Below are positions 8,913-64,000 of a stretch of DNA of 64,000 nt, piece after piece. The notes under the pieces are model-generated. The model saw only the letters and a list, made by a program, of their open reading frames with translations, searched no databases and was not told the DNA's origin. The stretch comes from Salvelinus alpinus (Eukaryota > Chordata > Actinopteri > Salmoniformes > Salmonidae): the NCBI RefSeq assembly GCF_045679555.1, contig NC_092091.1, positions 11,495,918-11,559,917 of the forward strand. Direction: 5' to 3'. Within the stretch, counting starts at the first letter, position 1; each line of letters begins with the position of its first letter. A program made the translations under genes and the position numbers.

Positions 8913-9095
8913 CTGGTTGTGCCACCTTTAGCTGCAATGACTCCAACCAACCGCTTTCAGTAGTTGTTGATCAGTCTCTCACATCGCTGTGGAGGAATTT
9001 TGGCCCACTCTTGCATGCAGAACTCATGGTTCCTTCTATGCTTTACTGCCTCAGGACCTGGACGACTGGCCTTAATAGGAGATAAACATCAATAC

Positions 9096-12000: not shown

Positions 12001-12604
12001 AACCTCCCTCTGGACAGACCCCCCCATAATCACACCAACCTCCCTCTGGACAGACCCCCCCCATAATCACACCAACCTCCCTCTGGACAAACCCCCCCAT
12101 AATCACACCAACCTCCCTCTGGACAGACCCCCCCCATAATCACACCAACCTCCCTCTGGACAAACCCCCCCATAATCACACCAGCCTCCCTCTGGACGGA
12201 CCCCCCCATAATCACACCAGCCTCCATCTGTACGGACCCCCCCATAATCACACCAGCCTCCCTCTGGACAGACCCCCCCATAATCACACCAACCTCCCTC
12301 TGGACAGACCCCCCCCCCCCATAATCACACCAACCTCCCTCTGGACAGACCCCCCCATAATCACACCAGCCTCCCTCTGGACAGACCCCCCCCCCCACAA
12401 TCACACCAACCCCCCTCTGGACAGACCCCCCCATAATCACACCAACCTCCCTCTGGACAGACCCCCCCCCCCATAATCACACCAACCTCCCTCTGGACAG
12501 ACCCCCCCATAATCACACCAACCTCCCTCTGGACAGACCCCCCCATAATCACACCAACCTCCCTCTGGACGGACCCCCCATAATCACACCAACCTCCCTC
12601 TGGA
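9096..12604 (+). repeat. 3.5-kb C-rich minisatellite, about 95 units
   Basis: The unit is ataatcacaccaacctccct followed by ctggacaga and a run of 6-18 C. Unit length varies from about 34 to 46 bp because the C run varies. Subtypes (ggacgga, catctgtacgga, ccggacagc) recur in the same order, showing block duplication. The open frames on both strands are repeat artefacts. On the minus strand every unit carries a G run. It lies wholly inside a Tc1-like element. Confidence 0.95.
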
Positions 12605-13819: not shown

Positions 13820-14442
13820 CAGCAGCCCGGATGTTCATGGCCGCAGCCCGGATGTTCATGGCAGCATCTCGGATGTTCATGGCAGCATCCCGGATGTTCA
13901 TGGCCGCAGCCCGGATGTTCATGGCAGCAGCCCGGATGTTCATGGCAGCAGCCCGGATGTTCATGGCAGCATCTCGGATGTTCATGGCCGCAGCCCGGAT
14001 GTTCATGGCCGCAGCCCGGATGTTCATGGCAGCATCCCGGATGTTCATGGCAGCATCCCGGATGTTCATGGCAGCATCTCGGATGTTCATGGCCGCAGCC
14101 CGGATGTTCATGGCCGCAGCCCGGATGTTCATGGCAGCATCTCGGATGTTCATTGCAGCATCCCGGATGTTCATGGCAGCATCTCGGATGTTCATTGCAG
14201 CATCCCGGATGTTCATGGCAGCATCTCGGATGTTCATGGCAGCAGCCCGGATGTTCATGGCCGCAGCCCGGATGTTCATGGCCGCAGCCCGGATGTTCAT
14301 GGCAGCAGCCCGGATGTTCATGGCCGCAGCCCGGATGTTCATGGCAGCAGCCCGGATGTTCATGGCCGCAGCCCGGATGTTCATGGCCGCAGCCCGGATG
14401 TTCATGGCCGCAGCCCGGATGTTCATGGCCGCAGCCCGGATG
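13820..14442 (+). repeat. 21-bp minisatellite, about 30 copies
   Basis: The unit is gcagcccggatgttcatggc plus one base. Variants are cagcatctcgg, cagcatcccgg and ttcattgcag. The period equals seven codons, so frames on both strands stay open for over 220 codons; these are artefacts. The array ends next to a fragment with the dispersed motif gatttgggatgcactcc (about 14490). Confidence 0.95.
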
Positions 14443-16103: not shown

Positions 16104-17150
16104 TTCGAGGCCTCTCCAACAGCTGCCAATGTTGTGTTGTTCGGGTCGAGGCCTCTCCAACAGCTGCCATGTTGTGTTGTTCGGTCGAGGCCTCTCCAAC
16201 AGCTGCCATGTTGTGTTGTTCGGTCGAGGCCTCAACAGCTGCCATGTTGTGTTGTTCGGGTCGAGGCCTCTCCAACAGCTGCCATGTTGTGTTGTTCGGT
16301 CGAGGCCTCGACAGCTGCCTTGTTGTGTTGTTCGGTCGAGGCCTCAACAGCTGCCATGTTGTGTTGTTCGGTCGAGGCCTCTCCAACAGCTGCCATGTTG
16401 TGTTGTTCGGTCGAGGCCTCGCCAACAGCTGCCATGTTGTGTTGTTCGGGTCGAGGCCTCGCCAACAGCTGCCATGTTGTGTTGTTCGGTCGAGGCCTCA
16501 ACAGCTGCCATGTTGTGTTGTTCGGGTCGAGGCCTCGCCAACAGCTGCCATGTTGTGTTGTTCGGTCGAGGCCTCTCCAACAGCTGCCATGTTGTGTTGT
16601 TCGGGTCGAGGCCTCAACAGCTGCCATGTTGTGTTGTTCAGTCGAGGCCTCTCCAACAGCTGCCATGTGTTGTTCGGTCGAGGCCTCTCCAACAGCTGCC
16701 ATGTTGTGTTGTTCGGGTCGAGGCCTCAACAGCTGCCATGTTGTGTTGTTCGGGTCGAGGCCTCTCCAACAGCTGCCATGTTGTGTTGTTCGGGTCGAGG
16801 CCTCGCCAACAGCTGCCATGTGTTGTTCGGTCGAGGCCTCTCCAACAGCTGCCATGTTGTGTTGTTCGGTCGAGGCCTCTCCAACAGCTGCCATGTTGTG
16901 TTGTTCGGGTCGAGGCCTCAACAGCTGCCATGTTGTGTTGTTCGGTCGAGGCCTCGCCAACAGCTGCCATGTTGTGTTGTTCAGTCGAGGCCTCGCCAAC
17001 AGCTGCCATGTTGTGTTGTTCGGTCGAGGCCTCGCCAACAGCTGCCATGTGTTGTTCAGTCGAGGCCTCGCCAACAGCTGCCATGTTGTGTTGTTCGGGT
17101 CGAGGCCTCAACAGCTGCCATGTTGTGTTGTTCGGTCGAGGCCTCCAACA
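16104..17150 (+). repeat. 35-40-bp minisatellite, about 28 copies
   Basis: The unit has tcgaggcctctccaacagct then gccatgttgtgttgttcgg. Variants lack 'tccaac' or four bases of the gttgtgttg part, so period length varies and frames on both strands run for 280-440 codons without being genes. Each unit contains an E-box (cagctg), an aggcct palindrome and a ccatgtt YY1-like core. Confidence 0.95.
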
Positions 17151-19073
17151 GCCGTTTCATCTCTTCCTCTGCAAGTTTCCATTTTCGCCTTGCTGCTGTC
17201 ATTCTCTCCAAGTGTCAAGCCTGGATAGATTACAGTTGGTCAAAAAGCAGATATGTTTTTGCTTTGAAGCTAACTATTCTCCTAACCTGCTACGAAAAGT
17301 CAATTCTGACATCCTTTGTATACTATAGTATCTAGTCAAATCACTGTCCAAGGTGCTGAAGAAAAGGGTTAGGGGGCAGCTTGAGAGGCTTCAGGATCAT
17401 CAGCAACCTAAGCACAAATGTTTGTGTCACCTTTAGATAAAAAGGTCACAGTAATATTTAACACACCAATATTCTTAAATCTCTATAGAAACCATGTCAA
17501 GCCATTACTTCCTGTGGTGCTGAGGGTGAAAGGGAGTACTTCGCTGCTGTAGAACTGAGCGGATTGGTTAGGTGGAAGCAATATGTTAATATTTCCACCC
17601 AGCAAATCACAAGGCAGGACGAAGCAATCCACCATAACATGAATATATATTAATTCCTCTCAGATCTACAGGAAACAGTGGGATGTCATTTCCTTCAAGA
17701 TACCTTACTCTTCCTTTGACAGCAAGGTCACGTGGGCTTCAGAAAACACCAGTTTTCACAAAAAAAAGTTAAATCAAATCAAATTAACGAATCCTAGCAA
17801 GTGAAGCTCGATACAAGTTAAAACAAGGAGTTGTATTCAGGTGGTCTTTTTTTGTAGCAACATTTCATAACAGTACGTACCAGTACTGTGATTGAGATGT
17901 CTGCGCAACAGTACGTACCAACAGCACCGGTTGCGTTCAAATCAACAGTTGCTACGTTTCCTTCAACCCGAATGCCCCCCAGGAGTCTGTTTTGTCTTTT
18001 GCATCGATTGACTATACAGACGATACAAAACAAACTATAAAGCAGAGAACCAACAAACAGGTCAACTTCTGTATACTGCATAGTGAGGAAAAGGTTTGAA
18101 GGACCATTTGGTAGAAAAATACTCAGAAATAAATCGATAATGTATGCCAATCAGATTTGATTTCCTTTTTTTAATCCAAAAGTTTTTAAATAACATTTAT
18201 GGGGAGAAATATTTAATTAAAATAAAATAAAAAAGCATGCAAAACATTAATGGAAAACTCAAATTGAGGTTCTAAACTCATTTAAATTTAGTAGAAAAGT
18301 TACTTGGGAGTTAATTAAAATTGAACTCCCAAGTCCTCAATCTGCCTTGGCTGATTCGAATGACAACCAATGTCCAATTAAACAAATTAACTTTGTAATG
18401 ATGATCTATTCAGCGTCACACAACCTGTTTTGCAGAGGAAATAATCTGGTTTTTCTACTACCTAAAAATTCAGAATACATTGGTTTTCAATGCAATTGTC
18501 TTATTTTAACACGGTGTTACACAAACAAAAGGGCATGGTGGTGGAGACATCAATACAAGTTTGATAAAAAAATTCAGATGAAAACATTTTGATTCATACA
18601 AAGTAGCGAAGAGAGTAAGCCAATCCAAATCCAAGCTCGATTTTTTTTTAAAAGAAATAACAAGATAGAATGCATTCGTCAACACTTTATAAAACTTTTT
18701 TTTTTTCTGACAAAAATATCAAATCAGGTACAACTTGTCAGTCTCTGGTTCCACAAAAATACTAATAAAAAACTAAAACCACAAGGATCTACTTGAACAA
18801 TCGCTTCACCAGGCAAGAGTGTGAGGGTGGAAATGTCAGGTAGGAACGTCCAAATCCCAGTCTCCTTGACGTGGATTTACTCTGAGGGCAGGAAACGACC
18901 AAAAAAAACAAAACTTCCTTTGCACAGGTGTTTGGAGGGCGGAGGAAAAAGAACAAGTGGACACAGGTTAAGGAGCGGTGGTCATGGAGACCCCCTTGGT
19001 TACGGCAGGGATCCTGATGTGCTGCAGTTCAGTGTGTGTAGTGTGTGTGTGTAGTGTGTGTGAGATGGTGGAC
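17151..19073 (-). other. Probable api5 3' flank and 3' UTR region
   Basis: The api5 stop codon is at 19074-19076, so at least part of this stretch is its 3' untranslated region. I find no unambiguous minus-strand AATAAA; an ATTAAA occurs at 18212-18217 (minus strand). There is no other recognised gene or repeat. The extent of the 3' UTR is inference. Confidence 0.4.
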
Positions 19074-22000
19074 TCAGTAGATTCGGCCTCGGCTCCTGCC
19101 TCCCCTGCCCCCGAATCCTCTTCCCCGGCCGCCCCTGAAGCCTCCGCGCTGCTCTGGAATCACAGACGGGCACAACAGACAGGGGATCAGTATGGACAAT
19201 CATCGTAAGGGCCAGTAGATTTTTCTGACTGTTAGCCAGGAATACCCTCTGGGCCTTAGTTTGAAGGGATCCAACAGCCTATAAAAGGAAAAACTAACCG
19301 GCTAAAATGGTCAGGGGAAATACTTCTGGTGTTACTCCATGTGTGTTATAGCTCAAAAGGATCGTAATATGGAGACATTTCCTCCCATTCAGTTGCAGAT
19401 TTCTCAAATGCTCACATGAAACAGAGGGCTCAGCTTGAAAACAATGCCTTATTTGGGTTAATTAAGCAATAAGGCACCCCAGGTTTGTGTTATATGGCCA
19501 ATATATCACGGCTAAGGGCTGTGTCCAGGCACTCCGCAATGCATCGTGTTTAAGTACAACCTTAGCCGTGGTATATTGGCCATATACCACACCACCTCGG
19601 GCCTTATTGCTTATGGCCAATATACCACGGCTTAGGTTGTACTTTGCCTGGACACAACCCTTGGCCGTGGTATATTGGCCATATAACACAAACCTGAGGT
19701 GCCTTATTGCTATTATAAACAGGTTACCAACGTAATTAGAGCAGTAAATATATGTTTTGTCAAACCTGTGGTATATGGTCTGTTATACCATGGCTGTCAG
19801 CCTTTCAGCATTCAAGCCTCGAACAACCCAGTTTATAACTATCCTTTGAACAAGGTACATTCTAGCATCAAATCATTAGCATGTGCACCTCGGTCACTCA
19901 AGTAACACCACCAGAAAGGGTGTACGTGGCACAATACACGGTGGAAGTGAACAATATCCAACACACACATTGGAGAGGATCAGTAGGCCCCCAAAACATG
20001 ACCACAGTTCAGTCAGTAGATCATCTCACCCAGAGTGACTACGTCACACCAAGAGCATTCTACTTATGTAGGAGAAACAAAACGTCAGAGAATATGAGGA
20101 AAAAAACAGATGTCTGCGCAACGTCTGTCTTCCACCCGGTGCCCCTTAAACCCAGCTATGGCTCAGTGTGCCGCCCTCGCCGCCCCAGCGTCACCCTCAC
20201 CGTTCGAGAAGTTGCCGATGGTGGCGCTGTACTTGCCACTGGGGGGGTTGTAGATCTGCCGTGCGTCCCTCCGGGGCAGGGGGGGGGACAGCTGCTTCTT
20301 CATGGTACTGCCTGCACCCATATCCTCCCCGGACGGGCGCTTCAGACTGTGGTGGGCAAAGAGGGCAAAGGTCACAGTGTTATGACCCCAGCTGACCTTA
20401 TCTAATGGTGTTTTATCTGAAGATGTGCAACTGACAAGTTGCTAGTGTCCCTGTATAATGTATTACAAATCCATTCATCAGTCATTGATGTGGGCAGGTC
20501 CGTTGAGATGAGACTGAAACCCATGAATGAACATTACACTCCAAAAATCAACGTTTGTCAGATGTTTTCCCATACCCTAAGTGACACATCTTCAGTTAAA
20601 TTCCACAAATCTGGACACTACATGGTACTTATCAATTCATTTTAGATTTATGGCATAGAGTGCGATTTACAAAACAGACGGCCTGGCATTGAACTGATCC
20701 TGACGGACTACTTTTGGAGATCTGAAAACATCTGACCCATTTAGATTTTTGACAGTGTAATGCATCGTTAAGACTGATAAAAGAACACCTCGTCAGAAAC
20801 CCGATATTCTGGGTCACCAGATTCCCCGTGACAACATTGAAAGAGGCTTACGCTACTGCCTCAGCCTTCTGGACAGGCTTCCAGGACAGCGTGACTGTGC
20901 TCTTGTACGACGGTGGGTTGTGGAAGAGATCCTGCAGAGAAAGGGAACAGTAATGAGAATGTTAGCTAGCGTTTCAGGGTCGACCAAGTGCGTTTCAGGG
21001 TCGACCAAGTGTTTCGAACTCCTCACCTTGATCAGAACGTTGATGTTGTTGGTGATCTTCAGAGCCACCACTTTGATCTTGTTCTGAGATGGAAAGACAA
21101 CATAACCATCAGGGAATACTCACAATAGAAAACTGTCTACAGCGCTTGATTGAAATCAGAACAACTGTGAGGCTTGTCAAGAAGAAACAAAACAAGTGAC
21201 GTATCATTGGAGACCAAAACAACAGCCATGATACACAGCTACCTCTTCGGTCTTCAGTGCGTCTCCCGTCTTGCCTTGCAGGGCAACTCGCAGCTGGCGA
21301 ATGTATACCTGCAGCCCTCTGGCGAAGTACTGTAATCTGGAGGCAGGAGAGAAAAAACAAACTTGGGTTATACACCTTTCAAACCAAGACGGTTTTCTCG
21401 CCATCTTCAACATCCCGCCAACTTTTAGTTATACATTTCCACCAACCGACCCAGTAATGATCTCGGTAAAGTTCTGCCTACGGCTTAGTATGAACCGTAG
21501 CCGTAACGCTGAGGCGGTATTGGCACGCTCTTGGTGGTTGCTAGGCAGCTAACTACTATCATCCTGGCAGTTGTAAACTTTGCGAGGCATGTCACTTCAT
21601 CCATCTCGTCGCGTAGCCCACCACATGCACTGTTGTTTTCTCAACTACAACTGGATGGATCCATAAAGACTTACTGTGGGAATAAATATCACTGAATGAC
21701 AAAAACAATATGGAAATAAAATAGGCTATTGCAATAGAAGGCATCAAATTGTTGCTTACTGAAACTCCCAAAGTCATTCAATTGTTATAAACTATTCAAA
21801 GCATTAGCCTACCTGTGTGGAGTCACTATTTCAGCACCGTTTCACACTGTTTTGAGACAAACGTGTTTTTCTTTTCTTCCACTGAATTGCTGTTTGGATA
21901 TTGGTTAGGCTACAATTAGGCTGTGGAAATGTTAGCTAAGTGGAGGCGAGTGCTGCTCATGATCATCTTGTCTAGTTGGCTCATTATTTCGCATTGATCA

Positions 22001-25000
22001 GACCATTTTGCCAGCATGTTATGTAGTTTAACTAACGGATTATTTTGCTCTTCACTTGCAGTCGCTTAGTAGCCTAGGCCTACTCCCTACCAGTCACTTA
22101 GTAGCCTAGGCCTACTCCCAACCAGCATGTGACTTGTTTTAAAGTGATTTTGTTTCACTGAATCTGTCTGTTTATTTGTTTAATTCTAAATAAGTAGAGG
22201 TGGGACAGCTCCATCTATCACTGCTCAGAAACATTTAGCATGCTATAATGTAGCCGAAATCAGGTAAACGTCTATTTTTTGCTCAATTGCATAAATGCAA
22301 CTCCAAAAGCCCCACGGAGGATGTGAAATTTGAACACGAGACTCAAATGCTTTTGAAACGATAGAACGCTATTATTTTCTAAGTGTATAAAGAAGATACT
22401 CAATGTGAGACCCTACCCCCTAACATAACAGAGGTTAGGAAGGAGAAAAAGTGGATTAAAATTGTCTTTTTTAAAAACACGGACTTGCCTTGGGCTCTTT
22501 ATTTATATGTTTCAGCAGTTCCACACGTTGCCATGCGGGGATGTTTTTTTTTTGTGTGTAATTTATTCTGTTATATTTCATTATATTCTTAGCCTACTAT
22601 AAAATACAATGAGCTCCAATTGGGACAGTGAAACATTTGTTGTTTTGACTGTATACTCTCAACACTTTGACATGATACAATGACTGAGGTTAACGTGAAG
22701 ACTGTCAGCTTTCATTTGAGGGTATTTTCATCCATATCAGGTGAACCGTTTAGAAATTACAGAACTTTGTGTATATATCATCCCACCCATTTTTGGGAAC
22801 AAAAAATATTGGGGCAAATTCACTTGTGTATTAAAGTAGTCAGGTTAACTATTTGGTCCCATATTCGGATTGGAGGTTAACTTTAAAGTAACGCTAGTGG
22901 TCAACAACTCAGATGTGGAAGCCAAACAACTCAAATGCTTAGAATAATGCTTGTTAATGATTTGTACCTTAAGTGGATGCCTTGTACGTCTATCCATTCA
23001 TTTTACAGCGTAATTAAATACACGTGTATTTAAAATTCAATTTTTCAGACATTTCTTCATTGTCTACTACTGTAAATCCCCTACAGTCTCCTGAAACAAT
23101 TCTGTTTATCCTCTGGACTCAGATAAAGACAATTCATTTAATGGGCTAATTGCTTAGGTCTTATTACAAGTCGAATGTGACGTTTATATAATATACACAT
23201 ATATCAAATACTACTGCCCACTACAACCTCAGTCATTGTATCATTTGAAATCCAAAGTGCAAGAAGTACAGAGCCAAAACAACTAAATGTGTCACTGTCC
23301 CAATGCTTTGAGCTCACTGTGTGTGTGTGTGTCGACTGTAGTCAGGGTAACCCAAGTAGGCCTAGTTTGTTGAATGATCAATAAACACCTATTGATTTCA
23401 TGTGAACGGCTCAGCCATATAGGAAGCACAGACTAGTAACATCATTCAACTCGAAATATGCCATTCTAATCTTTTGAAAATACATTATTTATGTTTCTTA
23501 GGACTTGCATAAAACTATCTATCCAATAGTGGATTTCTTTGTGATGGGTGTATATTCCAACTGATTTATTCAAATAAGACGTCCATCCACATCTAGTCCC
23601 ACACTGGACGGCATGTAGAAAAGACTTATCCAGGAAGGAATGTGGTCAAAACAGGACTGTAAGAACTAGGTTCTAATAAAACATGGCCAGATTAAAAACG
23701 ACAGGCAACATTCAGTAAAGTCTGTATGTAAAAGGGTATTAGACTGACTTAAAAAAATAATAAATTAAAACTACGACGCGGTAACAAATCACTAACATTA
23801 CTGGCACCCACACGCTACAGTAGAGACTAATACAAATTAAACAGAAGTGTTGTGAAAACGCAGATGACTCTGATGAAAATGGGGACTGAAATAAATTGAA
23901 ATGCCAAACGTTCCCACAACACACCAAGACTTTTCAAAAAGACAAGCGAACGTTGCCAAAAACGTTACGGGGCAAACCCTCCTCTACCTGATCTTGAAGT
24001 CTTTGAGGCGCTCTGCATTGATCTTGTCAATGAGGAAATCAGGGAGCTTTTTGCCCAGCTGGTGGAAGCTGAAGAGGAGACACTCCACGTAGCTGAACTG
24101 CAGCTTGGGCTCGTCGCTCAGCGTGTTCTCGCCGTTCTCACCCTCCGCCTCTGGAGGCAGCGGCATGAACTCCTAGACACAGGGAGGAAGGGTGGACCAG
24201 TTAGCCTTTTACCCGTCGGGACCAGTTAAGCCAAAACACACCATAACCAACAACCGGCCTCATACTTCGGCACGGTCTGTTTGGTACATTGGCCTTTCAC
24301 CAGTCTGATAAATCAGACCGTTACGTAAGCTGGTCCAATAATCAACAACTAGATATAGAGATATGCAGTCTGGTGAAAGCCCTCCTAACCCCATTAGAAG
24401 GTACCAGTCTGGTGAAAGCCCTCCTAACCCCATTAGAAGGTACCAGTCTGGTGAAAGCCCTCCTAACCCCATTAGAAGGTACCAGTCTGGTGAAAGCCCT
24501 GCTAACCCCATTAGAAGGTACCAGTCTGGTGAAAGCCCTCCTAACCCCATTAGAAGGTACCAGTCTGGTGAAAGCCCTCCTAACCCCATTAGAAGGTACC
24601 AGTCTGGTGAAAGCCCTCCTAACCCCATTAGAAGGTACCAGTCTGGTGAAAGCCCTCCTAACCCCATTAGAAGGTACCAGTCTGGTGAAAGCCCTCCTAA
24701 CCCCATTAGAAGGTACCAGTCTGGTGAAAGCCCTCCTAACCCCATTAGAAGGTACCAGTCTGGTGAAAGCCCTCCTAACCCCATTAGAAGGTACCAGTCT
24801 GGTGAAAGCACTCCTAACCCCATTAGAAGGTACCAGTCTGGTGAAAGCCCTCCTAACCAAATTAGAAGGTACCAGTCTGGTGAAAGCCCTCCTAACCCCA
24901 TTATTAGAAGGCTGAGATGCGCAAGGCTGTTACTTACAAGCAGCTTCTCAAACAGCATGGTGAGGTTGGTCTCCACCTTCTCCATGTCCCCACAGAATGG

Positions 25001-28000
25001 ACTCATCTCAGCAAGCAGCTTCAGCACCTACACACACACACCACATGTCAATGCTATTGTCCCCGGCATGTTGGAGCCAACATGGAGGACTAGTTGCCTG
25101 AACTCTGTACGGTTGGTACAGGGGAGGGTGATAACTGACCTCCAGCTGAATGTCCAGATCAGCCACGGGACTGGTCAGGGAGCTGAGGTTGGGCAGGACG
25201 TGGTCACAGAAGTAAGTGACGAAACGGGTGGAATGGACATTTTTCTGGAAGTGTAAAAATAATGAGTTTCAAGCTCAGGAAGTTAAAGTTTATTTGTCTC
25301 TGAGGAACATTTGTTATTGGGGGGGGGGGGGGGGGGGTCAGAAGCTTGAACAAACATGCATAAATAGAAAATAAGTAAAAATGAGACGTAAAGGCACAAA
25401 CACAATTAGCATTTTGCAAACAATTACAGTGTATGTGGTGACAGTGAGCATTGTAAAACAAAAGTTTTGCAGTGTTTGGTGATACTCTGTGTGTTGTGAG
25501 CAGGAGATAAGCAGTTGCTTCAGTTGGTAAGAGTGTGGCACTAGCAAAGCCAAAGTCGCAGGTTCAAGTCCCACAGGACACACACAAAAATGACTATGAA
25601 CTCACTGTACTGGAAGACACTAAGTGGAGTATAGTATGTTAGAATGTCTGTGTATCACTCTCAGAGAAGAGGTGGAGTATATTATTATGGCCTGTGTGTG
25701 TGTATCACTCACAGAGAAGAGGTGGAGTATATTATTATGGCCTGTGTGTGTATCACTCACAGAGAAGAGGTGGAGTATATTATTATGGCCTGTATGTGTG
25801 TGTGTGTATCACTCACAGAGAAGAGGTGGAGTATATTAATATGGCCTGTGTGTGTATCACTCTCAGAGAAGAGGTGGAGTATATTATTATGGCCTGTGTG
25901 TATCACTCACAGAGAAGAGGTGGAGTATATTATTATGGCCTGTATGTGTGTGTGTGTGTATCACTCACAGAGAAGAGGTGGAGTATATTATTATGGCCTG
26001 TGTGTATCACTCACAGAGAAGAGGTGGAGTATATTATTATGGCCTGTGTGTGTATCACTCTCAGAGAAGAGGTGGAGTATATTATTATGGCCTGTGTGTG
26101 TGTGTGTGTGTATCACTCACAGAGAAGAGGTGGAGTATATTATTATGGCCTGTGTGTATCACTCTCAGAGAAGAGGTGGAGTATATTATTATGGCCTGTG
26201 TGTGTGTCACTCACAGAGAAGAGGTGGAGTATATTATTATGGCCTGTGTGTGTGTCACTCACAGAGAAGAGGTGGAGTATATTATTATGGCCTGTATGTG
26301 TGTGTGTGTATCACTCACAGAGAAGAGGTGGAGTATATTAATATGGCCTGTGTGTGTGTGTGTATCACTCACAGAGAAGAGGTGGAGTATATTATTATGG
26401 CCTGTGTGTGTATCACTCTCAGAGAAGAGGTGGAGTATATTATTATGGCCTGTGTGTGTGTATCACTCACAGAGAAGAGGTGGAGTATATTAATATGGCC
26501 TGCGTGTGTGTGTGTGTGTATGTATCACTCACAGAGAAGAGGTGGAGTATATTAATATGGCCTGTGTGTGTGTGTATCACTCACAGAGAAGAGGGGCAGG
26601 GCCTGGCGCGTGCACTGCAGCAGGCGGTCCACAGTGTCGGGGTCAGCGGGGTTCAGGGCCTGCTCCAGAAAGGCCTGCTCCACCACCAGCTCCACCAGCT
26701 GCTGCCGTCCACTCATCGTCTGCAGGCCCTTCAGCACCATCAGGATACGCATCAGCAGCACAAACTCTTCCCCAGTCACGTCCTCCAGCACCTGGGGTAG
26801 GAACAGGTCAACGCGGGACACGGGTCAACGTGGGACACAGGGCTGGGTCGTGTTCAGAAGGCACCAAACAGAAGAAAACTGACAAACTGGGAGGGACTAC
26901 CAGGACTTGTCCAACAAGAAAGTAATTTTTTGCTTTCAAGACGTTTTTGCTACGATGTGCTCTAATAAAAATGACCCAGGAGTCACCAGCTAGAAATATA
27001 TCCTACATCCAACTAGGTGACAGATCCCTCCTACAGAGCTCTTGTATTCAGTTTGTAAACTAATAATAATAAAAATGAATTCTAATCTATCCAAGCCCTT
27101 TCACAAAGAGCTCTACTAACCAGCCCCAAGCAGGGAGTTAGTTCACCACGCGGATCGATGCTACCAAAGCAGAGTGCTATGGAACAGACCTTCTTTGTCT
27201 CGGTGAAGATGTAGTCCTCCACCTCCTTGGTCATGGCGTCCTCAGGCATGGTCTTCAGCTTGATGGAGAGGAACTTGATGGCCCTCTCCCTTACTATGTC
27301 CTCCCCCTGCAGGATCTGAGAGAACAGACCTCCTAGTGTAGCTGAGACAGAATAGAGAAATACAGGTTGGTTAGCCACAGGACATAAAGAGGCTATGCAG
27401 AAGTCCTGCCTCTGGGGGGGAGGGGGGGGGGGGGCGCCCGAGGCAAAAAAAAGGGTATTATAACCATGTTATGCTCACCTCAACGAACTAACTATGACTA
27501 CCCACTAACTATGATGGTTCATTTAATATTTCTAACTATTCCGGTGCCCAGTTCACCCATTCATTTGGAATTAAGGTCTACCACATGTTTACTAACTCGT
27601 TGTTCAGAGTTCTACATAACAGACAGCGTGGAATACAGTCAGGTATGAAAACATCTGGGGGAAAAATACAATTTCTTTTGAACTACTCTTTTCTTTTTAG
27701 AGCATTGCACGAATACAAGAGCACGAGGCAGGGAGCCCTGCCTGTTCACTAGTGTACACAAGAGCACGAGGCACGGCATCCTGCCTTTTCACTAGTGTAC
27801 ACAAGAGCACGAGGCACGGCGTCCTGCCTTTTCACTAGTGTATACAAGAGCACGAGGCAGGGCGCCCTGCCTGTTCACTAGTGTACACAAGAGCACGAGG
27901 CAGGGCGCCCTGCCTGTTCACTAGTGTATACAAGAGCACGAGGCACGGCATCCTGCCTTTTCACTAGTGTACACAAGAGCACGAGGCACGGCGTCCTGCC

Positions 28001-31000
28001 TTTTCACTAGTGTACACAAGAGCACGAGGCACGGCGTCCTGCCTTTTCACTAGTGTACACAAGAGCACGAGGCACGGCATCCTGCCTTTTCACTAGTGTA
28101 CACAAGAGCACGAGGCACGGCATCCTGCCTTTTCACTAGTGTACACAAGAGCACGAGGCGCGGCATCCTGCCTGTTGACTAGTGAAGTTGTCAGTCATCT
28201 CACGTTTGAAAACATACTCATACATGAGATAAAATGTAAAAAAAATAAAAATAAAAATGGACTCTTACCCTTCGCGTCCATCTTGAAGATGGAGACCAGC
28301 GCTGTGTTCACTTGGTTGAATTCGGCCGAATCGTCTGTAAACAACAACGTAGAAGAGAGTATAAATATTGGTCCAACAGCATCCCAGACGGTACATATCT
28401 CCTATTGACACCGACCCAAACACCACCATGGTATACATAATGTCCACTCCCAGGAGAGTACAAACTCCACCATGGTATACATAATGTCCACTCCCAGGAG
28501 AGTACAAACTCCACCATGGTATACATAATGTCCACTCCCAGGAGAGTACAAACACCACCATGGTATACATAATGTCCACTCCCAGGAGAGTACAAACACC
28601 ACCATGGTATACATAATGTCCACTCCCAGCAGAGTACAAACACCACCATGGTATACATAATGTCCACTCCCAGGAGAGTACAAACTCCACCATGGTATAC
28701 ATAATGTCCACTCCCAGCAGAGTACAAACACCACCACGGTATACATAATGTCCACTCCCAGGAGAGTACAAACACCACCACGGTATACATAATGTCCACT
28801 CCCAGCAGAGTACAAACACCACCACGGTATACATAATGTCCACTCCCAGCAGAGTACAAACACCACCAAGGTATACATAATGTCCACTCCCAGGAGAGTA
28901 CAAACACCACCATGGTATACATAATATCCACTCCCAGCAGAGTACAAACACCACCATGGTATACATAATATCCACTCCCAGGAGAGTACAAACACCACCA
29001 TGGTATACATAATGTCCACTCCCAGGAGAGTACAAACACCACCATGGTATACATAATGTCCACTCCCAGCAGAGTACAAACACCACCATGGTATACATAA
29101 TGTCCACTCCCAGGAGAGTACAAACACCACCATGGTATACATAATGTCCACTCCCAGGAGAGTACAAACACCACCATGGTATACATAATGTCCACTCCCA
29201 GCAGAGTACAAACACCACCATGGTATACATAATGTCCACTCCCAGGAGAGTACAAACTCCACCATGGTATACATAATGTCCACTCCCAGGAGAGTACAAA
29301 CACCACCATGGTATACATAATGTCCACTCCCAGGAGAGTACAAACACCACCATGGTATACATAATGTCCACTCCCAGCAGAGTACAAACACCACCATGGT
29401 ATACATAATGTCCACTCCCAGGAGAGTACAAACACCACCATGGTATACATAATATCCACTCCCAGCAGAGTACAAACACCACCATGGTATACATAATATC
29501 CACTCCCAGGAGAGTACAAACACCACCATGGTATACATAATGTCCACTCCCAGGAGAGTACAAACACCACCATGGTATACATAATGTCCACTCCCAGCAG
29601 AGTACAAACACCACCATGGTATACATAATGTCCACTCCCAGGAGAGTACAAACACCACCATGGTATACATAATGTCCACTCCCAGGAGAGTACAAACACC
29701 ACCATGGTATACATAATGTCCACTCCCAGCAGAGTACAAACACCACCATGGTATACATAATGTCCACTCCCAGGAGAGTACAAACTCCACCATGGTATAC
29801 ATAATGTCCACTCCCAGGAGAGTACAAACACCACCATGGTATACATAATGTCCACTCCCAGGAGAGTACAAACACCACCATGGTATACATAATGTCCACT
29901 CCCAGCAGAGTACAAACACCACCATGGTATACATAATGTCCACTCCCAGGAGAGTACAAACACCACCATGGTATACATAATGTCCACTCCCAGGAGAGTA
30001 CAAACACCACCATGGTATACATAATGTCCACTCCCAGGAGAGTACAAACACCACCATGGTATACATAATGTCCACTCCCAGGAGAGTACAAACACCCCCA
30101 TGGTATACATAATGTCCACTCCCAGGAGAGTACAAACACCACCATGGTATACATAATGTCCACTCCCAGGAGAGTACAAACACCACCACGGTATACATAA
30201 TGTCCACTCCCAGGAGAGTACAAACACCACCACGGTATACATAATGTCCACTCCCAGGAGAGTACAAACACCACCACGGTATACATAATGTCCACTCCCA
30301 GGAGAGTACAAACACCACCACGGTATACATAATGTCCACTCCCAGGAGAGTACAAACACCACCATGGTATACATAATGTCCACTCCCAGGAGAGTACAAA
30401 CACCACCACGGTATACATAATGTCCACTCCCAGGAGAGTACAAACACCACCATGGTATACATAATGTCCACTCCCAGGAGAGTACAAACACCACCATGGT
30501 ATACATAATGTCCACTCCCAGGAGAGTACAAACACCACCATGGTATACATAATGTCCACTCCCAGGAGAGTACAAACACCACCATGGTATACATAATGTC
30601 CACTCCCAGGAGAGTACAAACACCACCATGGTATACATAATGTCCACTCCCAGGAGAGTACAAACACCACCATGGTATACATAATGTCCACTCCCAGGAG
30701 AGTACAAACACCACCATGGTATACATAATGTCCACTCCCAGCAGAGTACAAACACCACCATGGTATACATAATGTCCACTCCCAGGAGAGTACAAACACC
30801 ATGGTATACATAATGTCCACTCCCAGGAGAGTACAAACACCATGGTATACATAATGTCCACTCCCAGGAGAGTACAAACACCACCATGGTATACATAATG
30901 TCCACTCCCAGCAGAGTACAAACACCCCACGGTATACATAATGTCCACTCCCAGGAGAGTACAAACACCACCATGGTATACATAATGTCCACTCCCAGGA

Positions 31001-34000
31001 GAGTACAAACACCATGGTATACATAATGTCCACTCCCAGGAGAGTACAAACACCACCATGGTATACATAATGTCCACTCCCAGGAGAGTACAAACACCAC
31101 CATGGTATACATAATGTCCACTCCCAGGAGAGTACAAACACCACCATGGTATACATAATGTCCACTCCCAGGAGAGTACAAACACCACCATGGTATACAT
31201 AATGTCCACTCCCAGGAGAGTACAAACACCACCATGGTATACATAATGTCCACTCCCAGCAGAGTACAAACACCACCATGGTATACATAATGTCCACTCC
31301 CAGGAGAGTACAAACACCACCATGGTATACATAATGTCCACTCCCAGGAGAGTACAAACACCACCATGGTATACATAATGTCCACTCCCAGGAGAGTACA
31401 AACACCACCATGGTATACATAATGTCCACTCCCAGGAGAGTACAAACACCACCATGGTATACATAATGTCCACTCCCAGCAGAGTACAAACACCACCATG
31501 GTATACATAATGTCCACTCCCAGGAGAGTACAAACACCACCATGGTATACATAATGTCCACTCCCAGCAGAGTACAAACACCACCATGGTATACATAATG
31601 TCCACTCCCAGGAGAGTACAAACACCACCATGGTATACATAATGTCCACTCCCAGCAGAGTACAAACACCACCATGGTATACATAATGTCCACTCCCAGG
31701 AGTACAAACACCACCATGGTATACATAATGTCCACTCCCAGCAGAGTACAAACACCACCATGGTATACATAATGTCCACTCCCAGGAGAGTAGAAACACC
31801 ACCATGGTATACATAATGTCCACTCCCAGCAGAGTACAAACACCACCATGGTATACATAATGCCCACTCCCAGGAGAGTACAAACACCACCATGGTATAC
31901 ATAATGTCCACTCCCAGCAGAGTACAAACACCACCATGGTATACATAATGTCCACTCCCAGCAGAGTACAAACACCACCATGGTATACATAATGTCCACT
32001 CCCAGGAGAGTACAAACACCACCATGGTATACATAATGTCCACTCCCAGCAGAGTACAAACACCACCATGGTATACATAATGTCCACTCCCAGGAGAGTA
32101 CAAACACCATGGTATACATAATGTCCACTCCCAGGAGAGTACAAACACCACCATGGTATACATAATGTCCACTCCCAGCAGAGTACAAACACCCCACGGT
32201 ATACATAATGTCCACTCCCAGGAGAGTACAAACACCACCATGGTATACATAATGTCCACTCCCAGGAGAGTACAAACACCATGGTATACATAATGTCCAC
32301 TCCCAGGAGAGTACAAACACCACCATGGTATACATAATGTCCACTCCCAGGAGAGTACAAACACCACCATGGTATACATAATGTCCACTCCCAGGAGAGT
32401 ACAAACACCACCATGGTATACATAATGTCCACTCCCAGGAGAGTACAAACACCACCATGGTATACATAATGTCCACTCCCAGGAGAGTACAAACACCACC
32501 ATGGTATACATAATGTCCACTCCCAGCAGAGTACAAACACCACCATGGTATACATAATGTCCACTCCCAGGAGAGTACAAACACCACCATGGTATACATA
32601 ATGTCCACTCCCAGGAGAGTACAAACACCACCATGGTATACATAATGTCCACTCCCAGGAGAGTACAAACACCATGGTATACATAATGTCCACTCCCAGG
32701 AGAGTACAAACACCACCATGGTATACATAATGTCCACTCCCAGCAGAGTACAAACACCACCATGGTATACATAATGTCCACTCCCAGGAGAGTACAAACA
32801 CCACCATGGTATACATAATGTCCACTCCCAGCAGAGTACAAACACCACCATGGTATACATAATGTCCACTCCCAGGAGAGTACAAACACCACCATGGTAT
32901 ACATAATGTCCACTCCCAGCAGAGTACAAACACCACCATGGTATACATAATGTCCACTCCCAGGAGTACAAACACCACCATGGTATACATAATGTCCACT
33001 CCCAGCAGAGTACAAACACCACCATGGTATACATAATGTCCACTCCCAGGAGAGTAGAAACACCACCATGGTATACATAATGTCCACTCCCAGCAGAGTA
33101 CAAACACCACCATGGTATACATAATGCCCACTCCCAGGAGAGTACAAACACCACCATGGTATACATAATGTCCACTCCCAGCAGAGTACAAACACCACCA
33201 TGGTATACATAATGTCCACTCCCAGCAGAGTACAAACACCACCATGGTATACATAATGTCCACTCCCAGGAGAGTACAAACACCACCATGGTATACATAA
33301 TGTCCACTCCCAGCAGAGTACAAACACCACCATGGTATACATAATGTCCACTCCCAGGAGAGTACAAACACCACCATGGTATACATAATGTCCACTCCCA
33401 GCAGAGTACAAACACCACCATGGTATACATAATGTCCACTCCCAGGAGAGTACAAACACCACCATGGTATACATAATGTCCACTCCCAGCAGAGTACAAA
33501 CACCACCATGGTATACATAATGTCCACTCCCAGGAGTACAAACACCACCATGGTATACATAATGTCCACTCCCAGCAGAGTACAAACACCACCATGGTAT
33601 ACATAATGTCCACTCCCAGGAGAGTAGAAACACCACCATGGTATACATAATGTCCACTCCCAGCAGAGTACAAACACCACCATGGTATACATAATGCCCA
33701 CTCCCAGGAGAGTACAAACACCACCATGGTATACATAATGTCCACTCCCAGCAGAGTACAAACACCACCATGGTATACATAATGTCCACTCCCAGCAGAG
33801 TACAAACACCACCATGGTATACATAATGTCCACTCCCAGGAGAGTACAAACACCACCATGGTATACATAATGTCCACTCCCAGGAGAGTACAAACACCAT
33901 GGTATACATAATGTCCACTCCCAGGAGAGTACAAACACCACCATGGTATACATAATGTCCACTCCCAGCAGAGTACAAACACCACCATGGTATACATAAT

Positions 34001-37000
34001 GTCCACTCCCAGGAGAGTACAAACACCACCATGGTATACATAATGTCCACTCCCAGCAGAGTACAAACACCACCATGGTATACATAATGTCCACTCCCAG
34101 GAGAGTACAAACACCACCATGGTATACATAATGTCCACTCCCAGCAGAGTACAAACACCACCATGGTATACATAATGTCCACTCCCAGGAGTACAAACAC
34201 CACCATGGTATACATAATGTCCACTCCCAGCAGAGTACAAACACCACCATGGTATACATAATGTCCACTCCCAGGAGAGTAGAAACACCACCATGGTATA
34301 CATAATGTCCACTCCCAGCAGAGTACAAACACCACCATGGTATACATAATGTCCACTCCCAGGAGAGTACAAACACCACCATGGTATACATAATGTCCAC
34401 TCCCAGCAGAGTACAAACACCACCATGGTATACATAATGTCCACTCCCAGCAGAGTACAAACACCACCATGGTATACATAATGTCCACTCCCAGCAGAGT
34501 ACAAACACCACCATGGTATACATAATGTCCACTCCCAGGAGAGTACAAACACCACCATGGTATACATAATGTCCACTCCCAGCAGAGTACAAACACCACC
34601 ATGGTATACATAATGTCCACTCCCAGCAGAGTACAAACACCACCATGGTATACATAATGTCCACTCCCAGCAGAGTACAAACACCACCATGGTATACATA
34701 ATGTCCACTCCCAGCAGAGTACAAACACCACCATGGTATACATAATGTCCACTCCCAGCAGAGTACAAACGCCACCATGGTATACATAATATCCACTCCC
34801 AGGAGAGTACAAACGCCACCATGGTATACATAATGTCCACTCCCAGGAGAGTACAAACATTTCCCCTCAACACGGCATGTGCTACATTGGTTTGATACAA
34901 GGTACGAGTGTTGCTCGGCATACCGGTAACGTTCCCATGGTAATCGTACATTACCAAAACATCACAATACCAACAGTTTTAGAATAACGCAGTAACGTTT
35001 CATATGATGCTACCGATTTTTTCAGCCCTACCGAACCTGCTGGCGCTTGTTATAAAATGTTTATAAATTCAGTTGAATTCAAGCAACAGCCACTGGTATG
35101 CGCCAGTTCAATAACATCCACCTCACTCGCCTGCTTCTGGGCTTTCCCTGTATATAATCTTGCTATAGTACTGCTGCTCTTTAATTACTTGTTACTTTTA
35201 TTTCTTATTCCTATTTTTTCTTAAACCTGCATTGTTGGTTAGGGGCTCATAAGTAAGCATTTCACTATAAGGTCTACACCTGTTGTATTCGGCGCCTGTG
35301 ACAAATAAAATTTAATTTGATCTATTACTCTATCCGTTTTTAAAATGGAATTTAGCCGTGATGGCGAGTGGGATTTTTGTTTTTTTTGTTTAAAACAATA
35401 ACATGACAAAACACACATCACAACATAAAGAGAAACCTAAGACAACAACATAGCATGGCAGCAACACATGACAACACAGCATGGTAGCAACACAACATGG
35501 TAGCAGGCACAAAACAGGGTACAAACATTGGGCACGGACAACAGCACAAAGGGCAAGAAGGTAGAGACAACAATGCATCACTGCAGTCCTTGAATCTTCT
35601 GTTACATTTGTTACATCGGAGTAGCGTGAGCAAAGTTGATACATTATATAATTTCATTGCCTGTTATAACTATGGGCACAGGCCAGTCTGAGTAGACTGC
35701 AAGTTCGCTGTGACGCAGCCTCCCGAGTGCCAGAGTCAATTGAGCACAAGCCTAAACGGGTAAAAATATGACCCATATTACCAGAGACACCTTTTTTCTT
35801 TCTATGGGATTCCTTTCTAACAGTTTTATCCCCCTATTATGTATTTTAAATTATTTCCTCCTTGCACTGTCTGTTATGTATAAATCTTTTTACTGACCAA
35901 AGGAGATATGAAGAATTATTTTCTATAATACTTTATATAATTTCACAAACCATGCCGCGGGCCGTTTTAAACTAATCCGGGGTAACCAATTATTGGTTTG
36001 ATAACAATGTTGTTCAGTCATGTTACCTAGCTAGCTAACAACCCGGTAACTTGACAATAGTGTCTAGGCTAATTTGATAGGCCCAGGAAGAAAGGAAAAG
36101 GGTCTGCTACTCATGACAGGTGCTTCTAAAAAAAAAGGGAAGGATTCATGTAGGCCTAAACTATATTAAAAACATTCTCCTTCTGGTGTTACTTCAATTC
36201 TGTTTGGTGCCTAACATTTTAAAAGTTTGGGGCAGTGTGTTTATGAGAGAGAAGGAAACAGAGTGTGATGAAGGGAGGGAGATGTGTGTTTGTGTGGGAG
36301 AGAGTAGTGTGTGTGTTTATGAAGGATTCGATCTGTGTTTATTAAGTGAAGACTAAAGAAGGTTTCATGCAGTATTTTCCCTTACTGCCATAATGATATG
36401 CAGATCAGTATGCATGTATATTCCACTAGGCCACTCCCCCCTCTGTGGTAAAAGCAATACTTGGCCTGGTATCGAAATTAAAATGTTCGTATCACAACAA
36501 CACTAAGTTACATGTGAAAATGTCTAGGCGGGTTAGCTTAAGAGTACTGTACCTGTCTGGAGAAGCTGGGTGAGGATATCTGCTACCCTGACGATGTTCT
36601 CCCCGGCTGCGAAACGGGGGAGCTCTTTGATGGCCTGCCTCCGAATCTACAGGAGGAAAGACGAAGAACCAACAACCGGTGAGCAACAGAGTAGTAGGAC
36701 TACTGTGACCAGGCATTAGATATACAGCTACACTTATATATTGACGGATTAAAATCAAACTTTTTTTTCTTTCTTCCCCATTCTGCACAATGGAATTACC
36801 CAAATGGATACGATTGTGCCTAAAATCATTACCGAGACGTCTTCATCCTCACACAGGTCAAGCTGAGCGTTGATTGCTGCATCCGCCAGCTCTGGGAAAC
36901 TGCTGAAGAATTTGGGAATGAACTGTGCTGCCAAGCGCTTCTCTTTAGGACCCCCTTTCACGCCATCAAGGATCACCTGATAGGCATCTTTGTGCTGGAG

Positions 37001-37873
37001 GATAGATCCAAACAATTTGATACATTAACAAGTTTGTAATATTAGGACATCACTGTCCTACATGAATGCAAAAGCTTCCAGTTTAGTGTTGGTCAAAATA
37101 CTGAGTAGACTAGAGATGAGACTTCTGCCCAACAAGCATGCAATACTTGAATCCCTTGGCATTATACTAGCAAGTTGTCAGTAGTAGTAACTACCTAACT
37201 TAGCTAGCTAACAACACTTAAGAGAGAGCGCCTTTGATTTTTACATTGTAAATCTAACCAGTTGCAAATAATGCCATGGCTCAACAAAAAAAAAAATCAG
37301 GAGCTGTGCAAGGCAATCAGCGTTAGCTAGCTATCCGCTATTTAGCTAGTGTGATAGGGGTCAGGTCAAATCAATTGGCTAGCATGAAGCTAGCTAGCTG
37401 TCTGTGTTCTCTGTTTTGACTTCGCTAAGCCTACTAAAATGTATTAAAAACATCGTCAAGTAACTAACTAGTTACCTTACTTGCTATACATGTAAATTAA
37501 TAGCGCATAGTTAACGTTAGTTCCATGAGTTACCTGGAAAACTACGATACAAACGCCGGGTAAATCAAGTGGAACAGGATTAGCTTGCAAATTAGGCCCA
37601 TTTTAGCTTGCTAGCAAGCTAACGTTAGTTTAACATGAGATGCTAACTAGCTAGTTACTATACTTAACCAATGCGTGTGGTTCGGCCTAACTTTCACCTC
37701 TGGCTTCCACTACTGTACCTTATTTGAAGAAAAAAAGTGGAGCTACTCTGGAAGATACTTCAATTACTTAGATAACTAGACATCCATCTCATGCATACCT
37801 GGCTCAGATCCTCCGGCTTGGCATCAGCAAGAATCCCATAGTTACGATACAGCTCCTCGATAGTGACCGCCAT
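19074..37873 (-). CDS. api5: Apoptosis inhibitor 5 (14 coding exons)
   Basis: Nuclear HEAT/ARM-repeat protein that blocks apoptosis, with reported partners in the family including FGF2 and Acinus. Coding exons 5' to 3': 37799-37873, 36833-36994, 36553-36646, 28269-28334, 27190-27341, 26585-26791, 25140-25244, 24938-25027, 23988-24172, 21243-21336, 21027-21083, 20852-20931, 20201-20346, 19074-19153. They sum to 1593 nt, 530 codons (human 524), with phase kept at every GT-AG junction. Recognisable blocks are ELYRNYGILADA (exon 1), KEKRLAAQFIPKFF (exon 2), GGLFSQILQGEDIVRERAIK (exon 5) and KNVHSTRFVTYFC (exon 7). The lysine acetylated in human (K251) corresponds to residue 253, the first of exon 7. 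Heptad leucines 380, 387 and 394 mark the leucine-zipper region of exon 10. A basic segment near 456-475 suits a nuclear signal, and residues 505-530 form an RGG-rich tail. The exon-5 donor (AAG|GTCTGT) is weak. Introns are swollen by four minisatellites. I am sure of the identity; exon 12/13 joining (GTAAGC donor) rests on frame and family likeness. Confidence 0.96.
19465..19711. mobile_element. Palindromic MITE in api5 intron 13
   Basis: The ends are mirror images: agcaataaggcacc and ggtttgtgttatatggccaa on the left, their complement on the right. The interior repeats the motif ccgtggtatattggccatat in both orientations four times. The element could extrude a long hairpin. It has no coding capacity. 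Confidence 0.85.
22609..23314. mobile_element. DNA transposon remnant with long terminal inverted repeats
   Basis: The left end has tgagctccaattgggacagtg-like sequence, followed by aaacatttgttgttttg and gatacaatgactgaggtt. The right end, reverse-complemented, repeats these (tgagctc, ttgggacagtgacacat, ttagttgttttggc, gatacaatgactgaggtt). Arms are about 90 bp. No transposase was recognised, so it is a non-autonomous element in api5 intron 10. Confidence 0.7.
24366..24909 (+). repeat. 39-bp minisatellite in api5 intron 8, 14 copies
   Basis: The unit is cagtctggtgaaagccctcc followed by taaccccattagaaggtac. Copies are almost identical (single changes gctaacc, cactcct, aaccaaatt). The period of 13 codons keeps frames open on both strands. 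The array starts about 30 bp into the intron from the exon-8 donor at 24938. Confidence 0.97.
25511..25580 (+). repeat. tRNA-derived SINE fragment
   Basis: tcagttggtaagagtg resembles a pol III A box and gcaggttcaagtcccac a B box with T-arm. The acceptor stem does not pair and the anticodon arm is irregular, so this is a SINE head or tRNA relic rather than a working tRNA gene. It lies in api5 intron 6. A 19-base poly-G run is nearby at 25319-25337. Confidence 0.55.
25640..26580 (-). repeat. About 50-bp minisatellite carrying copies of the api5 exon-6 donor
   Basis: Eighteen units run up to the exon-6/intron-6 boundary at 26585. On the minus strand each unit reads CTCTTCTCT-GTGAGTGATA then a CA tract, GGCCATAATAATATACTCCA. 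The first part equals the last nine bases of exon 6 plus its donor. In five units GTGAGT is changed to GAGAGT; about 13 keep a perfect donor. Unit length varies with the CA tract. All open frames here are repeat artefacts. Confidence 0.95.
27712..28188 (+). repeat. 43-bp minisatellite in api5 intron 4, 11 copies
   Basis: Units start every 43 bp from 27719 to 28149. The unit is gagcacgaggcacggcatcc, then tgccttttcactagtgtacacaa with the motif broken by single changes. In some units ggcagggcgccctgcc forms a perfect short palindrome. Confidence 0.97.
28421..34858 (+). repeat. 6.4-kb minisatellite of a 44-bp unit in api5 intron 3
   Basis: About 146 copies of a unit reading accatggtatacataatgtc then cactcccagg/cagagtacaaacacc. 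The main variable site is G/C in cccag[g/c]agag. Rarer variants are aatatcc, gcccact, tagaaac, a 2-bp deletion (caggagtac) and a 3-bp deletion (aacaccatgg). Variants recur at fixed spacing, so blocks of units were duplicated together. The unit length is two modulo three and has no minus-strand stop, so all three minus frames are open for more than 2,100 codons. These are not genes: they cross api5 exon 4 in wrong frames and are pure repeat. Confidence 0.98.
35105..35325 (+). mobile_element. LINE 3' end fragment (L2-like)
   Basis: The tail motif taagcatttcactataaggt, then ctacacctgttgtattcggc and acaaataaaatttaatttga, is the classic end of a salmonid LINE. There is no reverse transcriptase left. 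It lies in api5 intron 3. Confidence 0.7.
35375..35620 (-). repeat. Dispersed salmonid repeat, inverted copy
   Basis: Reverse complement matches 53395-53640: the ttgtctctaccttcttgccc / tttgtgctgttgtc motif and repeated 'gctaccatgttgtg'. The two copies lie about 18 kb apart in opposite orientation. Confidence 0.7.
35621..36551. other. Remainder of api5 intron 3
   Basis: No repeat or exon recognised apart from simple gtgtgt tracts at about 36280-36320. Confidence 0.4.
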
Positions 37874-60480: not shown

Positions 60481-60841
60481 TCCTGTTGAGCTGTATCACC
60501 ACCTGGTAAGGCATCTTTAACCGCAGGGCTCTCCAGGGGGTGGTGCCTGCCCCCCAGGACATCTACAGCACCTGGTATCACAGGAAGGCCAACAAGATCA
60601 TCAAGGACCTCAGCCACCCAAGCCACAGCGTGTTCACCCTGCTACTATCTAGAAGGCGGAGACAGTGCAGGTGGGACTTCTCCAGGCCATCAGACTGTTA
60701 AAAAGTCACCACTAGCTGGCCTCCGCCCAGTACCTTGCCCTGAACTTTAGTCACTGTTACTAGCCGGTACTCGAGACTGCTGCCCTATGCCCTAGTATTC
60801 ATTATCATTGAGTACTCGTCACTTTAATAGTGTTTACATAC

Positions 60842-61548
60842 CGTTTTTCTTTTGAATTCAGGAGGCTAGTATCAGCTACATTTATGCCTTTACTAGACTA
60901 TGGGGATATTTTATATATGAATGCTTCCGCTCAGTGTTTGAGATCAATTGACACCCTTTACCATGGCACTTTGAGATTTATTTTAAAATGCAAAACACTT
61001 ACGCACCACTGCACTTTGTATACCAGGGTTAGCTGGCCTGCTCTAGTCACTCGTAGGCTCAGTCACTGGTATACTTTTATTTACAAAGCCATTTTGGGTT
61101 TACTACATTTTTATTTGGGCATTTATATTGTTCAGAAATGTGGTGGGTACTCTCTTCGTTCGCTAGACTTTATCCTGCTAACTGTTCCAAATGTCCAAAC
61201 TGAATTTGGTAAAAGGGCTTTTATGTACTCTGCGCCATCGTCTTGGAACGTCTTACAAAATACTTTTAAACTGGAAGAACTTGTCCCGATTGGTGTTTTT
61301 AAAACACTGATGAAGGATTTTGAGACTGATTCCCTGACCTGTCAATGTTTTTAATTTGCTGTTTTTGATTTTGTTATACTCTTGTGAATTCTATGGTTTT
61401 TACTAGATTACTTGTAGTTTTTCATGTTGTTTGTCTGTAATTTTTGTAATGACTTGGTGCTGCCTATCTTGGCCAGGACGCCCTTTAAAAAAAGATTTTA
61501 AATCTCAATGAGCCCTTCCTGGTTAAATAAAGGTTTAATAATAATAAT
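60842..61548 (+). mobile_element. Second LINE 3' fragment, inserted in the first
   Basis: A 174-codon open frame (60830-61354) carries a non-LTR RT C-terminal region (LVSATFMPLLDYGDILYMNA, FGKRAFMYSAPSSWNVLQ). After it come aggacgccctttaaaaaaag and a taataataataa tail. It is 5' truncated; the open frame starts in host-element sequence and is not a gene. Confidence 0.82.
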
Positions 61549-63938: not shown

Positions 63939-64000
63939 GTGAGTTTTAACATTTAATTTGTGACATTTTCAGACTGGTGATGTTGAGTAGGGCTGTTTAT

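Follow-up and report, generated by a model that had tools for sequence, protein, structure and literature searches.

A minisatellite multiplies the exon-6 splice donor in one of two api5 copies of Salvelinus alpinus

Intron 6 of an api5 gene of Salvelinus alpinus opens with a minisatellite whose units repeat the end of exon 6 together with its splice donor, and 13 of the 18 downstream copies retain a donor predicted to pair with U1 as well as the true one does. The gene lies on the minus strand of the 64,000-nucleotide (nt) stretch analyzed here (the window; assembly GCF_045679555.1, contig NC_092091.1, positions 11,495,918 to 11,559,917), to which all coordinates refer unless another locus is named. 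Of the two api5 copies that we found in the assembly, this one alone carries the exon-6 array. We consider it likely that the array is a young and largely tolerated minisatellite, next to which the true donor would still be used in most transcripts, with low-level slippage to the nearest downstream donors (decoys). Solved structures of API5 (chains 3u0r, 6l4o and 3v6a) match the peptide encoded by exons 7 and 8 (E 1.5e-29 to 3.2e-29), and the central features are the following, a slash within a sequence marking a splice boundary here and below.

19074..37873, minus strand: api5 coding region; 14 exons, all introns GT-AG, complete 530-codon frame
26585..26791, minus strand: api5 exon 6; 207 nt and in frame, with 26585 as its last base and CCCCTCTTCTCT as its 3' end
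26577..26584, minus strand: true exon-6 donor GTGAGTGA; U1 pairing -6.3 kcal/mol
25624..26594, minus strand: minisatellite of 19 units, counting the real junction as unit 1; GTGAGT in 14 and GAGAGT in 5, from Tandem Repeats Finder (TRF) and unit cutting
25707..26541, minus strand: 13 intact decoy donors, judged by U1 pairing, each extending exon 6 into the same TAA; first intron bases at 26532, 26470, 26372, 26318, 26262, 26214, 26120, 26014, 25968, 25910, 25816, 25760 and 25712
25624..25671, minus strand: last, divergent GAGAGT unit, without CAGGCC, at the array edge
25140..25244, minus strand: api5 exon 7; 105 nt, in frame, a candidate for skipping if the array behaves like that of human ABCA7, discussed below

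TRF reports the array in several rows, among them 25624-26509 and 25624-26594, and we cut it into units at CTCTTCTCT. On the minus strand, the array has 19 instances of this sequence followed by G(T or A)GAGTGA, one at the real junction and 18 in downstream copies. TCT/GTGAGT stands in 14 of the 19 units (the real junction and 13 copies), and the other five copies, with unit starts at 26429, 26175, 26071, 25873 and 25671, read GAGAGT; next comes GATA in 17 units and GACA in two (26271 and 26223). Each of the 18 full units measures 46-62 nt and combines an exon tail of about 10 nt with 36-52 nt of intron, the differences in length coming mostly from a CA tract whose longest unbroken run ranges from 2 to 9 CA over the 19 units. 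An earlier reading of the letters alone (hereafter the sequence-only reading) had thus placed and counted the array essentially correctly, including its split into about 13 GTGAGT and five GAGAGT copies. Its description of each unit as a repeat of the last nine exon bases plus donor captured the repeated junction and fell short on the exon side, where the exact match is 10 nt (CCTCTTCTCT), and the CA tract ending in CAG/GCC that it assigned to every unit is found in 18 of 19, the last, divergent unit having no CAG/GCC.

With the CA tract dropped, the 18 full units share a mean pairwise identity of 97.6%, only 3 of 39 core positions being variable, and because of this near-identity the array appears to have been homogenized recently. 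Donor base +2 is one of the three variable positions and is dead in 4 of the 18 full units (5 of 19 when the partial last unit is included), showing that the donor is not specially conserved within the array. Assembly-wide repeat counts of the 19-mer CTCTTCTCTGTGAGTGATA are lower bounds: there are at least 12 exact matches in the 2.37-Gb assembly, and all 12 found lie in this array. Comparison with shuffles at lags of 1 to 8 units revealed no higher-order repeat structure that stood out (lowest p 0.12). An association between the GAGAGT form and a short CA tract (p 0.08, 4 versus 14 units) was dropped. Chance origin of the array is not a serious alternative.

We estimated donor strength as the duplex energy against the 5' end of U1, with pseudouridine treated as U. 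Each of the 13 GTGAGT decoys pairs at -6.3 kcal/mol, as the true donor does, and the GAGAGT form at -2.8 kcal/mol, within a gene whose 13 real donors span -5.3 to -10.1 kcal/mol; predicted U1 pairing therefore cannot separate the true donor from its decoys, in line with the sequence-only reading that the donor had been multiplied at the same strength. From exon 1 to exon 13, 57 of 1613 GT 11-mers equal the exon-6 donor in pairing, the array contributing 14 of the 57. When the 68 GT sites of exon 6 and intron 6 are weighted by U1 pairing alone, the true donor would hold a Boltzmann share of 0.067; its counterpart in the second copy would hold 0.994. Use of any downstream donor is predicted to truncate API5, as had been proposed: the 11th read-through codon past the true donor is an in-frame TAA, which lies in unit 1 and is taken in by every decoy, and the predicted product is 262 residues long from all 18 downstream positions, dead donors included. 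With splicing at unit 2, the nearest decoy, the stop codon would begin 22 nt before the new exon end, and decay of such transcripts would be expected because seven further junctions follow. Skipping of exon 7 or of exon 6 would keep the frame, with predicted products of 495 and 461 residues, respectively.

The suggestion that every unit could act as a 29-nt pseudo-exon fares less well. The length stands in units 1, 3 and 5, where such an exon would shift the frame and yield 284 residues. However, all 18 array acceptors have a pyrimidine fraction of 0.35-0.47, whereas 12 of the 13 real acceptors have 0.65-0.94, the exception being exon 8 at 0.47. In addition, a dead GAGAGT donor would close five of the 18 pseudo-exons. 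The gap between donor and acceptor within one unit, some 20-35 nt, is below the minimum intron size. Masking of the donors by a hairpin between CUGUGAGUG and the CA tract, possible in every GTGAGT unit, was rejected as evidence. The real donor looked buried when folded, with 1.1% of mononucleotide shuffles as stable; against dinucleotide-preserving shuffles, fold z ranged from -1.28 to +0.45 over 7 stretches, placing the hairpin no higher than background, and 17% of 300 background GT sites were as closed. Pairing of ACTCCAC with GTGAGT in the decoys only was also discarded, the folding having given otherwise.

A protein search of the same assembly located api5 in four places on C6 (this contig) and four on C9. 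The C9 copy, which together with the copy in the window presumably stems from the salmonid whole-genome duplication, is complete in its 14 exons, with GT and AG bounding the 13 corresponding introns and with an intact 530-codon frame. Comparison with this paralogue, which the sequence-only reading had proposed, shows that the array is missing there: TRF finds no repeat within C9 intron 6, and its four rows over the two C9 loci include none of the arrays of the copy in the window, although one (about 2 copies, intron 3) resembles a 44-base-pair (bp) unit described below. The four array-bearing introns of the copy in the window are the longer ones (intron 3, 8218 nt against 1940 nt in C9; intron 4, 927 against 403; intron 6, 1340 against 469; intron 8, 765 against 379). 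The difference in length is nevertheless not one-sided, intron 9 measuring 2651 nt here and 1865 nt in C9, and intron 13, 1047 and 5407 nt.

Exon 6 of the C9 copy ends in TCG/GTGAGTGATGC, and after 33 nt from this donor comes GCCAGGCCCTGCCCGTCTTTTCTCT/GTGTGTTATAACACACACACACACAGGCC, a single decayed duplicate of the exon tail and donor (GTGTGT). Aligned with the exon end and unit 1 of the copy in the window, this duplicate scores 86, the maximum in 1000 shuffles being 26, and its first 14 exon-tail bases align without gaps. We infer from the array-free C9 copy, with its own decayed junction duplicate, that tandem duplication of the junction between exon and intron built up the array, and the alignment indicates that the exon-6/intron-6 junction has in all likelihood duplicated in both api5 copies. 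The C9 duplicate and the array units do not share breakpoints, the latter holding only about 10 exon bases; hence, either the junction duplicated independently in each copy, or one old duplication was remodeled. The decayed C9 duplicate and all units of the array read TCT, which suggests, by agreement of two of the three sequences, that TCT is ancestral and TCG derived. Predicted U1 pairing in C9 is -10.2 kcal/mol for the true donor, -1.9 for the decayed duplicate and -6.8 for a donor-like site further on. Weakening of the exon-6 donor is not specific to the array, since U1 energy is not the same in the two copies at 8 of the 13 donors (in the window, 5 are weaker and 3 are stronger), and the difference at exon 6 may be ordinary drift. 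The last base of exon 8 (24938) shows a difference of the kind seen at exon 6: the copy in the window has T (CTT) and C9 has G (CTG, near position 7456 of locus L017), with U1 pairing of -7.0 and -10.7 kcal/mol. The donor-like site of C9 has a counterpart just past the array:

25598..25608, minus strand: donor-like ACA/GTGAGTTC; C9 counterpart TTA/GTGAGTGC (L017, near position 6798), with aligned flanks and U1 pairing of -5.7 and -6.8 kcal/mol, respectively

This GTGAGT site is common to both copies, the sequence preceding it has diverged, and it is possibly the relic of an older junction.

We propose that the exon-6/intron-6 junction was tandemly duplicated again and again, giving rise to the array, and that the spliceosome would mostly choose the true donor, the first one that it meets behind a normal exon. 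Slippage to the nearest decoys would affect a small fraction of transcripts, which would gain 52 or 114 nt carrying a stop codon and be degraded, whereas in-frame skipping of exon 7 may rise with longer arrays, by analogy with the intron-18 variable number tandem repeat (VNTR) of human ABCA7. The decoys would be tolerated rather than selected, given that donor base +2 is among the three variable core positions. Several observations weigh against parts of this account. The low share predicted for the true donor by U1 pairing alone means that leakage could be large, and where 5' splice sites compete, the intron-proximal one, here a decoy, is often favored. Part of the score of 86 for the C9 duplicate comes from shared intron sequence and not from the exon tail alone, and the stronger C9 donor is not peculiar to exon 6, as seen from the donors that differ elsewhere in the gene. 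Finally, retention of an ABCA7 unit is reported not to change with VNTR length (PMC5954066), lending no backing to the idea that more copies mean more leakage.

An alternative that we regard as unlikely is that the array is fully inert, all spliced transcripts using 26585/26584 and the repeats being silenced by the exon context or by heterogeneous nuclear ribonucleoproteins (hnRNPs). Every unit contains a CA tract and the pyrimidine string CUCUUCUCU, which we presume, from its sequence, to be a motif for the polypyrimidine tract-binding protein (PTB), and the two together suggest hnRNP L and PTB as candidate silencers; the array acceptors, moreover, are poor. In two papers, hnRNP L is reported to repress cryptic exons through CA-rich motifs (PMC10057836, PMC5974433), although a further study, to judge by its title, gives the opposite sign, with hnRNP L stimulating eNOS splicing through CA repeats of variable length. 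However, the true donor carries the same motifs, so that silencing would have to discriminate by position, and in ABCA7 a decoy unit is used at about 2% (PMC5954066). Inflation of the copy number, or of the entire array, during assembly would be conceivable for a tandem array, an error-prone kind of sequence, yet it is highly improbable here: the units vary in the length of the CA tract and also at three positions of the core, the flank past the array aligns to the C9 copy, and no repetition of multi-unit blocks stood out in the lag analysis.

Functional readings attribute more to the array. After the gene duplication, the two copies might have resolved the same donor duplication in opposite ways, C9 by strengthening its true donor through the synonymous change from TCT to TCG at the last base of the exon while the extra donor decayed, and the copy in the window by letting donors of equal strength multiply to 13 decoys, a bank that would lower its productive output, which would turn the array into a device of dosage divergence with copy number as a heritable dial; we hold this to be improbable. 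A selected regulatory device, in which unproductive splicing sets api5 output through copy number or hnRNP level, strikes us as quite improbable. It is consistent with the 13 of 18 intact decoys that all lead to the same truncated product, and with the single good donor and dead decoy of C9, on account of which the copies could differ in output. On the other hand, the donor belongs to the few variable core positions and has been destroyed in 4 of 18 full units, and three other introns carry arrays that exclude the true donor, pointing to general minisatellite growth. There is very little to recommend a third function, that of a U1 bank. U1 protects transcripts against premature cleavage and polyadenylation (telescripting), and U1 recruited by the decoys could shield a poly(A) signal of the intron, the AATAAA at 25294 of intron 6 lying downstream of 14 donors at -6.3 kcal/mol (the true one included). 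Still, the C9 copy manages without an array, albeit in a shorter intron, and one AATAAA is unremarkable among the 12 AATAAA or ATTAAA found on the same strand from 37798 to 19154. Titration of U1, also raised by the sequence-only reading, finds no support on a global scale, as a nucleus contains roughly a million U1 copies and each transcript would add a dozen sites.

The exon-6 array is one of several in the window, for which TRF returns 33 rows, some overlapping. Within api5, minus-strand minisatellites occupy intron 8 (24366-24903, 39-bp unit, about 14 copies), intron 4 (27715-28184, 43-bp unit, about 11 copies) and intron 3 (28417-34859, 44-bp unit, about 147 copies); each lies at most 84 nt from an exon, and none includes the true donor. 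All four arrays came that close to exons in 1.2% of 20,000 trials of random placement within their own introns and in 0 of 20,000 when any fitting intron was allowed, the 84-nt threshold having been chosen after the data were seen. C9 intron 3 contains a near-single-copy seed of the 44-bp unit (score 54, maximum 31 in 200 shuffles), recognized by TRF as two partial copies, and C9 intron 8 a weaker seed of the 39-bp unit (37 versus 30 in shuffles); no convincing seed of the 43-bp unit was detected in C9 intron 4 (23 versus 22). Other large minisatellites lie outside the api5 coding span, at 9095-12604, 13820-14442 and 16105-17152 (units of 36, 21 and 39 bp, respectively). By eye, intron 13 (around 19460-19720, minus strand) holds inverted repeats containing AATAAGGCACCTC and GGCCAATATACCACGG, presumably a dispersed element common in salmonid genomes. 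Two plus-strand open reading frames, at 60812-61354 and 63498-63956, we take, also by eye, to be a fragment of a non-long-terminal-repeat reverse transcriptase and an exon of a thymine DNA glycosylase, respectively.

Arrays of this design have been described in human genes, and the sequence-only reading overstated the case in calling a tandem bank of donors beside an exon unusual. Every api5 decoy would truncate the product, unlike the donors of the human IFI6 (6-16, G1P3) minisatellite, whose 12-nt unit reportedly leaves the frame intact, each unit contributing 4 residues; the first api5 unit is 52 nt long and holds an in-frame TAA. In IFI6, the subject of Turri et al. (1995), two downstream units act as donors and three mRNA species result, according to a citing paper (PMC4526556). 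The closest counterpart is the ABCA7 VNTR, which includes the exon-18 donor and can have a single unit retained; frameshifted isoforms amount to 14 +/- 6 and 2 +/- 1%, the second being, by order, retention of one unit, and skipping of exon 19, unlike unit retention, rises with VNTR length (PMC5954066). As in ABCA7, where the unit starts with the donor GT, the api5 minisatellite immediately flanks its exon and includes its donor, and 13 of the 18 extra units offer donors comparable to the true one. In ABCA7, use of a downstream-unit donor shifts the frame to a stop and skipping of the following exon preserves the frame; the same is predicted for api5. The ABCA7 array differs in that its unit is 25 bp long, its region is rich in C, it numbers about 12 to 427 units, its splicing has been measured and it is associated with disease. 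The api5 array, in a fish gene and known here from sequence alone, is in turn set apart by its full unit of 46-62 nt with an exon tail and a CA tract.

Two further comparisons concern where such repeats arise. Minisatellite expansion at exon-intron boundaries alters splicing in human segmental-duplication genes (PMC2812944); the repeats reported there form new introns in recent paralogues, whereas the api5 intron is common to both copies and has the array inside it. Rainbow trout irak3 is likewise a salmonid gene in which a piece of an exon end recurs in the neighboring intron: 15-17 nt from exon 5 are repeated four times immediately upstream of that exon (PMC6763605), that is, on the acceptor side and in four copies, against the donor side and 18 extra copies in api5. 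No title among those listed in searches on such repeats names api5, no search having been aimed at the gene by name. What is new here is a second api5 copy in the same genome that has no array and carries one decayed duplicate of the junction. The gene provides a natural and extreme test of how the spliceosome chooses among 14 donors in a row with identical predicted U1 pairing, with the array-free copy in the same nucleus as a built-in control, and any use of the decoys could make the output of api5 depend on the length of the array. ABCA7 and IFI6 share the essential design of the api5 array, which makes it a rather extreme case of a kind already known and may extend the splicing mechanism of the ABCA7 VNTR to a non-human gene.
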